This document shows, one piece after another, positions 27,569 to 40,701 of a DNA stretch of 64,000 nucleotides. Origin of the DNA: Glaciecola sp. GTDB taxonomy: Bacteria > Pseudomonadota > Gammaproteobacteria > Enterobacterales > Alteromonadaceae. The DNA lies in assembly GCA_029246415.1 (NCBI GenBank), contig JAQWNF010000025.1, positions 1-64,000 on the forward strand, written 5' to 3'. The first letter of the stretch is position 1; each line of letters begins with the position of its first letter. The translations under genes were made by a program, and so were the position numbers. The notes beneath the pieces were generated by a model. The model did no database searches, was not told where the DNA came from, and saw only the letters and a program-made list of their open reading frames with translations.

Positions 27569-29233
27569 ATGTTGCGTTTAACCGATATTAAACTTCCCCT
27601 CGATCACGATGAACAGGCCCTTGAGCTAGCGATATTAAGCAAACTCGATATTCCCAAAAGCCAACTGATCTCATTTGAAATGTTTAAGCGAGGTTATGAC
27701 GCGCGCAATAACAAAAATATTCAGCTCATCTACACCTTAGATGTCGATGTAACTGAGCCTGAAGTGTTGTTGGTGAAGTTTGCTCAAGACCAACACGTGC
27801 GTGCCACGCCAGATATGACCTATAAATTTGTTGGGCATGCGCCTGAAGATCTAAGTGAGCGCCCAGTAGTTGTAGGCTTAGGGCCTTGTGGTTTGTTTGC
27901 TGCGTTGATTTTGGCACAAATGGGGTTTAAACCTATCGTGCTAGAACGTGGCAAAGAAGTACGCGAACGCACCAAAGACACCTTTGGATTTTGGCGTAAA
28001 CAGCCGCTTAACCCTGAATCAAATGTGCAATTTGGTGAAGGTGGTGCGGGGACGTTTTCTGATGGCAAGCTATACAGTCAGGTCAAAGATCGCAAGCATT
28101 ATGGCCGTAAGGTGCTACACGAGTTTGTCAAAGCGGGCGCACCAGAAGAAATCATGTATGTTAGCAAACCCCATATTGGTACCTTTAAGTTGGTTAATAT
28201 GGTGGAAAAAATGCGTAAAGAAATTATCGAGCTAGGCGGAGAAATTCGCTTCAGTACGCGCGTGGATAAACTGGATTTAGATAAATTGGGGTCAGAGCCA
28301 ATTTATTCGCAGAATAAAAGTGGCTCTGACCCCATTTATCAGCTGAAAGGTCTGCATCTGTCTGATGGTAGCTATTTAGCTGCCAAGCATGTGATTTTGG
28401 CTGTTGGCCACAGCGCGCGCGATACGTTTGAAGCATTATATGAACAAGGCGTCTACATCGAAGCCAAACCATTTTCAGTTGGCTTTCGCATCGAACACGA
28501 ACAAAGCATGATCGACAGTTGCCGTTTTGGTGATAACGCCGGAAATCCTATTTTGGGGGCGGCGGATTATAAGCTCGTTCATCATTGTAAAAATGGCCGT
28601 ACCGTATACAGTTTTTGTATGTGCCCAGGTGGAACAGTGGTGGCAGCGGCATCTGAGCCTGGCCGCGTCGTAACCAACGGCATGAGTCAATATTCTCGGC
28701 ATGAACGCAATGCCAATAGCGCCATTGTTGTAGGTATCACCCCAGAAAAAGATTTTCCAGGTCATCCATTAGCTGGTATTGCTTTGCAACGCGGTTTGGA
28801 AGAGCTTGCCTATAAAGTTGGCGGAGAAAATTACTGTGCCCCTGCGCAATTGATTGGCGATTTTATGCAAGGCACACCTAGCGGAGAACTTGGCGGAGTC
28901 AAACCTTCTTATACGCCGGGTATCACCTTAACCGATTTGAGTACTGTCGTACCCGATTACGTTACCCATGCAATTCGTGAAGCGATCCCTGCGTTTAATA
29001 AACAAATCAAAGGATTTGCTAAAAAAGACGGCTTATTAACTGGCGTAGAAACGCGAACTTCTTCTCCAATTAGCATCAAACGCAACGCTGATTATCAAAG
29101 TGTTAATGTCAAAGGCCTTTACCCGGCGGGTGAAGGTGCCGGCTATGCAGGTGGTATTTGGTCTGCGGGAATTGATGGCATTCGCGTCGCTGAGGCGGCA
29201 GCAATGGATACGCTAGAAAAGTTAGGTTCGTGA
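27569..29233 (+). CDS. COG2509 FAD-dependent dehydrogenase with in-frame palindrome insertion
   Basis: A 554-residue flavoprotein of the COG2509 family. An N-terminal ferredoxin-like domain (residues 1-95) precedes the dinucleotide-binding loop VVGLGPCGLFAALILA (about 111-126). NVQFGEGGAGTFSDGKL, VILAVGHSARDTF, FCMCPGGTVV and the C-terminal YPAGEGAGYAGGI follow, all family signatures. The physiological electron partner is unknown. Residues of about 238-257 (LGSEPIYSQNKSGSDPIYQ) come from a palindrome (28281-28340) that interrupts a beta-hairpin between RVDKLDLDK and LKGLHLSDGS but keeps the frame, so the gene appears intact and probably still works. Confidence 0.9.
   Translation: MLRLTDIKLPLDHDEQALELAILSKLDIPKSQLISFEMFKRGYDARNNKNIQLIYTLDVDVTEPEVLLVKFAQDQHVRATPDMTYKFVGHAPEDLSERPVVVGLGPCGLFAALILAQMGFKPIVLERGKEVRERTKDTFGFWRKQPLNPESNVQFGEGGAGTFSDGKLYSQVKDRKHYGRKVLHEFVKAGAPEEIMYVSKPHIGTFKLVNMVEKMRKEIIELGGEIRFSTRVDKLDLDKLGSEPIYSQNKSGSDPIYQLKGLHLSDGSYLAAKHVILAVGHSARDTFEALYEQGVYIEAKPFSVGFRIEHEQSMIDSCRFGDNAGNPILGAADYKLVHHCKNGRTVYSFCMCPGGTVVAAASEPGRVVTNGMSQYSRHERNANSAIVVGITPEKDFPGHPLAGIALQRGLEELAYKVGGENYCAPAQLIGDFMQGTPSGELGGVKPSYTPGITLTDLSTVVPDYVTHAIREAIPAFNKQIKGFAKKDGLLTGVETRTSSPISIKRNADYQSVNVKGLYPAGEGAGYAGGIWSAGIDGIRVAEAAAMDTLEKLGS
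28281..28340. repeat. REP/MITE-like palindrome inside a coding sequence, copy 1
   Basis: GGGGTCAGAGCCA (28288-28300) pairs perfectly with TGGCTCTGACCCC (28321-28333). Pairing continues imperfectly outward (ATAAAT / ATTTAT) and inward to a GCA loop, so the whole 60 bases can fold as one hairpin. It is related to the palindrome at 40247-40292 (GGGTCAGA-CCA core). Confidence 0.85.
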
Positions 29234-38427: not shown

Positions 38428-40701
38428 ATGTTAAAAATCATTGTAATAGGGATTGCGATTATTGGCGGGGCGAGTATGTTTGCGTCGAGCCGACTTACCG
38501 AGCAACAGGATCTACATAGCGTTCCTTCTGGTGTCGTTTTAGGTGCTACAGCGAGTATGTCGGCGAGAAACCCACCGCAGATCAACATCAATGTTCAAGG
38601 CAGTAATGGACTGATTAACCATGCACCGAATGTGGTGACGAATATTTTTCAGGTTGAAGAGGGTACATTGTTTTTTGACCATGTGCAGGCGGATATGGCT
38701 AAATCGTATGTGCCAAGTCCGGTGATCAATACCAGTGTGGATATGCAGGTGAGCGGAGTGGTTGAGCGTACTCGGGTGACCCAGACTTTTGTTAACCCAA
38801 GTAGTGAATGGGTTGATGCAACGTATGTGTTTCCAGTTCCCGTGGGCGCAGCGGTGGATGAATTATTAATGACTATTGGCTCTCGCCATATTGAGGGTCA
38901 GATCCAAATTAAAGAACAAGCCATTAAAACGTTTAATCAAGCTAAACAAGCCGGTAAAAAAGCCAGTTTGGTCTTACAAAAACGCCCTAATTTATTCACT
39001 AATCAGATTGCCAATATCGGGCCGAATGAACGAATTGAGATCAGTATTACCTATCAAAATACCGCGCAATATGCGGATGGGGAATATTCGGTACGTTTTC
39101 CAATGACGCTCTCACAGCGCTATGCCGTGACGGCTGAAAGTGTGAGTGATACAGCAGGCAAAATCGCAGGGGTTGATGCAATTGATACCTCGGATATGAA
39201 GCAACATGAGGTTGATTTTGTGTTGCGCTTAGATACACAATCAAACTCGACACAGATCCACTCAACCACTCATGCAATAGAAAGCCAAGCGATAGAACCG
39301 GGCGTGTATGAAGTGATGTTGAGTCAGGATACGATTGCTAATAAAGATCTGGTGATCAAGTGGCGCAGCGCACAAGATAATGAGCCGGTGGTGGCACATT
39401 ATCAGCAGCAAGTGGGGGATGCCGTCTATGGATTAGTGCATATTGTACCGCCACAAACGATACCTGAGTTGCAACCGAAACATACTATTTTCGTACTGGA
39501 TTCTTCAGGCTCTATGCATGGTACGGCGTTAACGCAGGCTGTCCAAGCTATAAGAGTTGGCTTGACTCAGTTAAATGAAGTTGATTCGTTTAATATTGTG
39601 GATTTTGATAGTGATGCGCGAGCGTTATGGAAAGGGGCTAAGATTGCAAATTGGGAACATCTGCAAGAAGCGCAGACGTTTTTGGCAAATGTAGACTCGG
39701 ATGGTGGTACTAATATTGCGGATGCATTGCAGTTATCGTTAACAACACTGACAGGGCCCGATGAACAATTAACCCAAGTGATATTTATTACTGATGGCAG
39801 TATTGATAATGAAGCGGCGTTAATTGAACAAATTGCAGGTTCGATTGGCCAACGTCGATTGTTTACGGTTGGGATTGGTGCTGCACCTAATGCATTTTTT
39901 ATGGAATACGCGGCTATGATAGGCAAGGGGACATTTACCTATATTGATAATGTGGATGACGTGCAAAGCACAATGACGCGGTTGTTTGACAAACTCAATC
40001 ATCCAGCGTTGACGAATTTACAACTTACCTTGCGAGATGAATCTAAGTTGGAAGCACTCAAATCAATTGAGGTCTATCCCAAAGTGCTACCTGATATCTA
40101 TCTCGGTGAGCCCATCGTGTTGAGTTATCGCTATGCAGGGTATCTGGATACAATGTCTTCCGATCTTGAGGAGTTACTGGTCACGGGGCAAATGCTCGTG
40201 GCAGGAGAGGCGAAAAGCATTCAGTTGCCGTTAACAGTTAATTTAATAGGGTCAGATCCAAATACTTTCAGTTTATTTGGATCTGACCCCAATTATCACG
40301 CTAAAGGATTAAATAAGCTCTGGGCGCGGGCCAAAATCAAAGAGATCACCACTTGGCCGTTTACCAATACCGAGTATTTGCCAGAAAATCTCGCGTCTAT
40401 GATGCAAAACCAAATCACCGAAACTGCACTAGCTGCAAAAATTGTCAGTAAGTACACCGCTTTAGTCGCAGTTGATGTGACGGCAACCAAACCTATTGAC
40501 ACCCAATCAAAAGCAGTGGATGTGGCGAATGCTAAGGCTGCTCATTTAAGCCGTCAACACCAAGCTAGGCGTCAGTTACAAGGTCAGTTACCGCAAACGG
40601 CAACGCCGATGGGGTTGTTATGGGTATTGGGTTGGATTGGCGTCTTAGGATTAGTGGCTCATTTTGCAATGAATGGTGTTCCATTAAAAGGACGCAAATA
40701 A
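38428..40701 (+). CDS. Marine proteobacterial sortase target protein (VIT plus VWA, LPQTA anchor)
   Basis: A 757-residue exported protein: N-terminal signal anchor (residues 1-15), VIT domain (about 95-225; VVERTRVTQTFVNPSSEWVD), VWA domain with MIDAS FVLDSSGSMHG (about 355), and at the C-terminus LPQTA, a hydrophobic helix (MGLLWVLGWIGVLGLVAHF) and KGRK. This is the TIGR03788 layout, the expected substrate of the adjacent sortase; the site reads LPQTA rather than LPxTG. Residues of about 606-622 (IGSDPNTFSLFGSDPNY) come from an in-frame palindrome insertion. The gene ends one base before the sortase ATG. Confidence 0.93.
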   Translation: MLKIIVIGIAIIGGASMFASSRLTEQQDLHSVPSGVVLGATASMSARNPPQININVQGSNGLINHAPNVVTNIFQVEEGTLFFDHVQADMAKSYVPSPVINTSVDMQVSGVVERTRVTQTFVNPSSEWVDATYVFPVPVGAAVDELLMTIGSRHIEGQIQIKEQAIKTFNQAKQAGKKASLVLQKRPNLFTNQIANIGPNERIEISITYQNTAQYADGEYSVRFPMTLSQRYAVTAESVSDTAGKIAGVDAIDTSDMKQHEVDFVLRLDTQSNSTQIHSTTHAIESQAIEPGVYEVMLSQDTIANKDLVIKWRSAQDNEPVVAHYQQQVGDAVYGLVHIVPPQTIPELQPKHTIFVLDSSGSMHGTALTQAVQAIRVGLTQLNEVDSFNIVDFDSDARALWKGAKIANWEHLQEAQTFLANVDSDGGTNIADALQLSLTTLTGPDEQLTQVIFITDGSIDNEAALIEQIAGSIGQRRLFTVGIGAAPNAFFMEYAAMIGKGTFTYIDNVDDVQSTMTRLFDKLNHPALTNLQLTLRDESKLEALKSIEVYPKVLPDIYLGEPIVLSYRYAGYLDTMSSDLEELLVTGQMLVAGEAKSIQLPLTVNLIGSDPNTFSLFGSDPNYHAKGLNKLWARAKIKEITTWPFTNTEYLPENLASMMQNQITETALAAKIVSKYTALVAVDVTATKPIDTQSKAVDVANAKAAHLSRQHQARRQLQGQLPQTATPMGLLWVLGWIGVLGLVAHFAMNGVPLKGRK
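40247..40292. repeat. REP/MITE-like palindrome inside a coding sequence, copy 2
   Basis: GGGTCAGATCCAAATA (40249-40264) pairs perfectly with TATTTGGATCTGACCC (40274-40289), leaving a 9-base loop. The core is shared with the element at 28281-28340 (GGGTCAGA[G/T]CCA and its complement). The insertion keeps the reading frame. Confidence 0.88.

Follow-up and report, generated by a model that had tools for sequence, protein, structure and literature searches.

Two unrelated genes in a 64,000-nt stretch of DNA from Glaciecola sp. (the window; contig C35 of genome G000, which comprises 2.96 Mb in 46 contigs) contain in-frame palindromes that most probably belong to the REPIN family of the single RAYT of that genome. 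This family is best explained by a spread in an ancestor shared by three sister species, after which the in-gene copies that kept the reading frame survived. The palindrome unit is a REPIN, two REPs in inverted orientation, and goes with RAYTs of the GGGGTCAGA class. A preliminary description of the window had called the element REP/MITE-like; the REP part of that identity holds, and this class takes the place of an unnamed MITE. REPs in frame are already known, and the surprising part is the apparently concerted change of in-gene copies together with REP words that are present without insertion, both seen in one clade. For comparison, ten congeneric genomes were used, among them G000, G002, G004, G005, G006 and G008. 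G000, G002 and G005 form the trio of sister species that carry the RAYT (RAYT-plus), and the other seven congeners have no RAYT match (RAYT-minus). ORFs were called mechanically, and orthologs or homologs were inspected for about ten genes.

The first palindrome, REPIN 1, lies on the forward strand at 28281-28339, within an ORF of 554 aa (27569-29233, forward strand) taken from the ORF list. The product matches PF21688 FAD-depend_C with 276.8 bits in Pfam and is referred to here as a COG2509-like FAD-dependent protein, a label retained from the earlier reader; its closest named relatives in protein comparison are from Glaciecola MAGs and Glaciecola sp. HTCC2999. Sequence, pattern search and folding delimit the element. 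Two perfect 13-bp arms, GGGGTCAGAGCCA (28288-28300, forward strand) and its complement TGGCTCTGACCCC (28321-28333, the inverted arm, reverse strand), enclose a centre of 20 bases, as first described, and ATAAAT/ATTTAT lengthen the stem to 28281-28339. As single-stranded DNA the element folds with -22.8 kcal/mol and a z of -10.7 against 200 shuffles. Both arms belong to what is called below the G dialect, and the orthologous arms in G002 and G005 carry GATCC. The hairpin codes for about residues 238-257 and is read in frame as GSEP...GSDP, confirming that the arms encode Gly-Ser-Glu/Asp-Pro.

The same loop in relatives devoid of the palindrome had been named beforehand as an observation that would speak against the proposal; the GS[ED]P...GSDP loop was found in only 5 of the 106 COG2509 rows listed, from three genomes, and the remaining listed relatives have loops that are shorter or unrelated. 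The COG2509 locus does not have the form of a clean insertion: relative to HTCC2999 (L069), a net 13 codons were gained and the adjoining bases differ as well. At the corresponding place (window 28240-28375; L067) G004 has a different, longer and non-palindromic insertion, similar in size to the REPIN, and the COG2509 loop thus tolerates insertions in general. An AlphaFold model of the protein has a mean pLDDT of 59.9, with values below 50 for residues 243-253, inside the REPIN-coded stretch and between the predicted strands 232-241 and 256-264. The model, too weak for proof, agrees with a hairpin-tip loop for the REPIN-coded stretch.

A second, related palindrome had been reported in another gene in the same frame relation, and this too is correct. 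REPIN 2 (40249-40289, forward strand), likewise defined by sequence, pattern search and folding, consists of 16-bp perfect arms at 40249-40264 and 40274-40289 around a centre of 9 bases; it has the T dialect in both arms, reads GSDP...GSDP in the frame used by REPIN 1, and folds as single-stranded DNA with a z of -8.7. The host gene (38428-40701, forward strand, 757 aa) encodes a marine sortase-target protein with VIT and VWA domains, as identified by Pfam and by TIGR03788 (578 bits, cut-off 551.65). Across species, the site is without any arm in G006 and has a single arm in G004; the trio has a doublet there, longer by 10 codons in G000 and in G005 and by 16 in G002. Six extra codons (YSNYLS) stand right behind the second arm in G002 only (L360), as if the site were still changing. 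The same gene has a REP-core-like word, GGGTCAGATCCAAATTAA, in its VIT-domain part (38895-38912, forward strand), which fails the 21-mer test used below, its 5' flank being different. When five species were compared, this word was identical in the three RAYT-plus species, and G004 had a similar but different stretch of equal length, separated from it by two synonymous changes and one Glu to Ile change.

Further copies exist in the genome, whose absence would have told against a family. With up to three mismatches allowed, the window has four matches to the 21-base arm, where 100 shuffles give 0.01 on average; in G000 the 8-mer GGGTCAGA has 103 matches and its reversed control 39 (100 of the 103 matches were taken into the context scan). 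At up to three mismatches, 21-mer arms number 46 in G000 (one palindromic place, C34:132427/132429, being included on both strands), 37 in G002, 35 in G005 and four in G004, and 2, 1, 1, 1, 0 and 0 in the rest, whereas the reversed control gives none in all ten genomes. About one chance arm match per genome is expected, so that a few in-ORF arms may be accidental. A genome-wide count of palindromes had been proposed with the first description: GGTCAGA-N12-42-TCTGACC is found at six places in G000 against one for the reversed control, three of them in ORFs (COG2509, the sortase target and a 130-aa ORF that gave no match in the family search) and three intergenic. G002 has seven palindromes, G005 six, G004 one and the other six congeners none, and four of the G000 copies fold as single-stranded DNA with z from -8.7 to -12.3. 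Reversed controls and shuffles reject a chance origin for the word set, individual sites excepted. Convergent ORFs border two of the three G000 palindromes that are intergenic, and these two may act as terminators; as a main role, intrinsic termination is a misfit for the in-gene copies.

The RAYT transposase with matching flanks that was to be looked for is present as one gene with matching arms on both sides. This single Y1 transposase gene of G000 (C24:86067-86765; L037:1462-2160) scores 52.5 bits against PF01797 (cut-off 23) and 79.5 bits against the NCBIfam model NF047646 REP_Tyr_transpos, just below its cut-off of 80. At E<=1, Pfam returned only Y1_Tnp and one unrelated weak hit. The gene is bracketed by GGGTCAGA arms at L037:1352(+) and 2214(-), and its right flank, GGGGTCAGAGC, and left flank, AGGGTCAGACCC, are inverted repeats with GGGGWSAS. 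In G002 the RAYT (L169) is flanked in the same way, and in G005 (L171) the contig covers only one of the two sides. Among the ten congeners a RAYT (Y1_Tnp) occurs only in G000, G002 and G005, at a syntenic locus, and it is only in these three sister species that a RAYT and abundant arms coincide; since this is one clade with one vertically inherited RAYT, the association within the genus amounts to one evolutionary event. The RAYTs of the sister species are 73-77% identical, as compared with 96-97% for COG2509 and 89-90% for EpmB. A cluster of three arm-like words, none of them in a long ORF, lies some 2 kb upstream of the RAYT gene (G000:C24:84082-84158).

Outside the genus, GGGGTCAGA words flank the RAYTs of six other genera, and GGGGTCGGTGACA or GGGGCCAGGTACC those of three more. 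A search for an exact 15-mer in five further genera whose RAYTs are of the same class yields 36 words, most of them in G050 and none in G025. All 19 exact words of G050 lie within 24 kb around its RAYT (C22:40987-64881), which suggests local spread. Of 23 words inspected in other genera, only two fall in an ORF that reaches 100 aa, each no more than ten codons from its start; the contrast with the trio is qualitative, the pattern searched in the other genera being a different and stricter one.

The REPs of the trio are not predominantly extragenic, unlike the usual criterion for REP-RAYT systems. ORFs of at least 100 aa contain 28 of the 46 arms in G000, 19 of 37 in G002, 22 of 35 in G005 and one of four in G004, and with a 200 aa cut-off the numbers are 26, 19, 20 and 1. 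These arms fall into 33 gene groups, 18 common to at least two members of the trio and 11 to all three. Family search identified the hosts as genes for GlmU, LipB, a class II aldolase, EpmB, SohB, cryptochrome DASH, FimV, a TonB receptor, DnaX, a GGDEF protein, YdiJ and others. Two of the REP frames encode Gly-Ser-Asp/Glu-Pro, and the 28 in-ORF arms of G000 are divided into 16 of GSxP type, eight of LT type, three GQ and one other. The first description spoke of palindromes in genes, which is accurate for COG2509 and the sortase target; most in-gene copies are single arms.

Entry into genes in frame, as originally proposed, describes some sites, where codons were added, and leaves aside several in-gene words that came with no change of length, besides the unclean COG2509 locus. 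In GlmU, for example, seven RAYT-minus species have NELGA-(N/D)(S/A)INL or similar with no insert, while G002 and G005 have gained eight codons and G000 13, the latter also seen as a 13-residue gap against PDB 4fce. A YliI-like dehydrogenase of G002 is seven residues longer at the word than E. coli 2g8s, and an M28 peptidase two residues longer than its PDB match, a remote one. On the other hand, the EpmB site has the same length in all ten genomes, and the word has 2-3 mismatches there in G000 and G005 as against 9-12 in seven RAYT-minus species. The length of cryptochrome DASH is equal in G006 and G008 (with 12-13 mismatches there), and five other congeners are 4-5 residues shorter. A GGDEF protein is likewise as long as its homologs in G002 and G005, which may or may not be orthologs, and alignments of the aldolase and of LipB to relatives of solved structure are free of gaps. 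Net codon gains vary (8, 10, 13 or 16), with no recurring single element length. As some in-gene words are present without length change, in-frame insertion by itself does not explain all copies.

The base that follows GGGTCAGA, termed here the dialect base, is G in 28, T in 10, C in six and A in two cases in G000; in G002 it is T in 29, G in four and A in four, and in G005 T in 26, A in six and G in three. The dialect was compared in 18 orthologous in-gene arms from 16 genes, one G000 word having been added by hand, with a mean flank identity of 83.7% (17 of the arms). The dialect base differs in 11 of the 18 arms; for the remaining 20 positions there are 19 differences in 360 comparisons, a rate lowered by the selection of both partners for likeness to the word. 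Ten arms from nine genes, on both strands, have T in G002/G005 against G (seven) or C (three) in G000, the reverse being never observed; one further arm has G against A. The excess at the dialect base has a p of about 8e-5 and the direction a p of about 0.002, or 0.004 per gene, with three of the ten differences being C/T transitions and the species pair a single contrast. At the protein level, COG2509 (left arm), SohB and cryptochrome DASH show a Glu/Asp exchange and a serine hydrolase an Ala/Asp exchange, and the other differences are silent. Both arms of COG2509 differ together in dialect. In-gene copies in unrelated genes thus seem, from sequence comparison in this one clade, to change in step.

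Among possible causes of this pattern, long-tract gene conversion is unsupported, since the dialect base is the sole difference in three arm comparisons (the COG2509 left arm, the COG2509 right arm vs G005, and YdiJ); the same single-base differences make point substitution with drive inseparable from short-core conversion. Selection on the protein for GSDP was rejected because the dialect position occurs in different frames and strands.

According to the explanation favoured here, two inverted REP copies would fold into a hairpin as single-stranded DNA, and the RAYT, an HUH tyrosine transposase, would have acted on single-stranded REP DNA. Copies would then have spread in the common ancestor of the three sister species, and those in genes would have persisted at tolerant sites without loss of the open reading frame, as in the COG2509 loop, the sortase-target linker, GlmU, and the DnaX and FimV linkers. 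With less confidence, a homogenising force at the DNA level may have acted on the copies after their arrival, because the in-gene arms agree in dialect with the genome they are in, even though the genes are unrelated. A mobile palindrome family that can become protein sequence had been postulated at the outset; the dispersed family and its in-frame copies are borne out, and we infer mobility from the sequences. Among the counterpoints, G004 keeps four arms and has no RAYT match, and some in-gene words added nothing at their site, for which plain insertion does not account. The latter words may have arisen by conversion of similar stretches or by substitution favoured by drive, a few of them perhaps by chance. 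One tentative proposal, possible but on balance doubtful, is that the RAYT drives the word into genes by overwriting, with REP DNA in single-stranded form pairing with gene stretches already similar to it and being copied into them, much as in oligonucleotide recombineering, and that the words are later rewritten with the shift in dialect despite amino-acid changes (Glu/Asp, Ala/Asp). If so, words would be gained without length change, and protein sequence would follow a selfish DNA word.

It is unlikely that the arm is instead a DNA uptake word (DUS/USS type), maintained by biased uptake and recombination, with inverted pairs as terminators, lineage dialects and an incidental RAYT. Such a word would account for the length-neutral copies, for the one-base dialect differences and for the intergenic palindromes between convergent ORFs. 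DUS number many hundreds of copies, and the 35-46 words per genome found here are far under that; moreover, arms flank the RAYT gene, in other genera too, and codons were gained at some sites. The available sections of the literature on Neisseriaceae describe DUS dialects (PMC3630211) and report that neisserial DUS arise by recombination, not point mutation (PMC2397512). With these DUS the present family shares a short in-gene word, lineage dialects and inverted pairs (PMC2397512, PMC3630211, in the same sections), and it differs in its tens of copies, its tie to a RAYT and its insertions at some sites. We consider still less probable that selection holds the word as a binding site of a host protein or as a replication or repair signal, the RAYT being domesticated to the same motif: the dialect is common to words inside and outside genes, and TnpAREP is termed domesticated in the available part of PMC8266576, but the words are few, seven of the ten congeners have 0-4, and the four in G004 may already be in neutral decay after loss of the RAYT. 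The least credible reading, that only the palindromes are REPs and the in-gene words are chance, turn peptides such as Gly-Ser-Asp-Pro written in REP-like codons, draws on several words at conserved motifs (aldolase, LipB), on the ordinary nature of GSDP-type turns and on three words that may be of this kind (G000:C31:28252, C28:22718 and C15:104506, each with three mismatches and partnerless in G002/G005), but it is opposed by the zero count of the reversed pattern in all ten genomes, the 0-2 matches in RAYT-minus congeners except G004, the 16 of 28 in-ORF arms of G000 with at most two mismatches, the 12 of 28 outside the GSxP-type frame, and the mismatch contrast at EpmB between two RAYT-plus and seven RAYT-minus species.

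Known systems resemble the REPIN family in several respects, the comparisons below being with the available portions of the papers cited. The TIRYT class, or TnpAREP subclass 2.1 (PMC3733652, PMC6006769), likewise has a single Y1 gene flanked by inverted repeats, and GGGGTCAG here fits GGGGWSAS; its single and dimeric repeats are also moderately abundant in the genome. The C-terminal HTH domain of TIRYT was not detected here by Pfam, and the repeats of the trio are mostly in ORFs, whereas those portions (PMC3733652, PMC6006769) mention intragenic GTAG and CGTC REPs and not intragenic TIR repeats. The REPIN of Bertels and Rainey 2011 (PMC3116915) is similarly an inverted REP doublet with a hairpin and a RAYT in the genome; there the copies number about a thousand and extragenic space is analysed, while here there are dozens, with many single arms in genes. 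PMC3733652 gives a GTAG criterion for the REP class, and in contrast to the GTAG/GGAG class the arms here read GGGGTCAGA, without a GTAG-type tetranucleotide head. For in-frame elements of this kind the first description had cited those of Rickettsia; others had already been described outside it: PMC3733652 listed GTAG and CGTC REPs within genes, repair genes among them, in 2013, and Rickettsia elements were known earlier. The listed REPs, Rickettsia palindromic elements included, also comprise singles and dimers wholly within ORFs of known function; the REP class and host are different here, and the in-step dialect and length-neutral words are unmentioned in that portion of PMC3733652. To Rickettsia palindromic elements the COG2509 and sortase-target copies are likened by placement, as in-frame palindromes in ORFs. 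Literature searches on TIRYT, on intragenic or concerted evolution with RAYT, and on Glaciecola/Alteromonadaceae REPs, of partial coverage, gave no report of this TIRYT-class family among the matches listed, and for GGGGTCAGAG as a string the titles among the matches listed look unrelated.

PMC8266576 still treats the way in which REPs spread as an unresolved matter. A clade with mostly in-gene REPs, empty sister alleles and a gene-by-gene dialect offers a natural record of how copies arrived and later changed. Should the change in step be real, proteins would be edited by a selfish DNA word, among them enzymes commonly regarded as essential such as GlmU and DnaX. In such genomes, a GSDP or LTPF peptide that is conserved may reflect a DNA signal rather than a feature of the protein.
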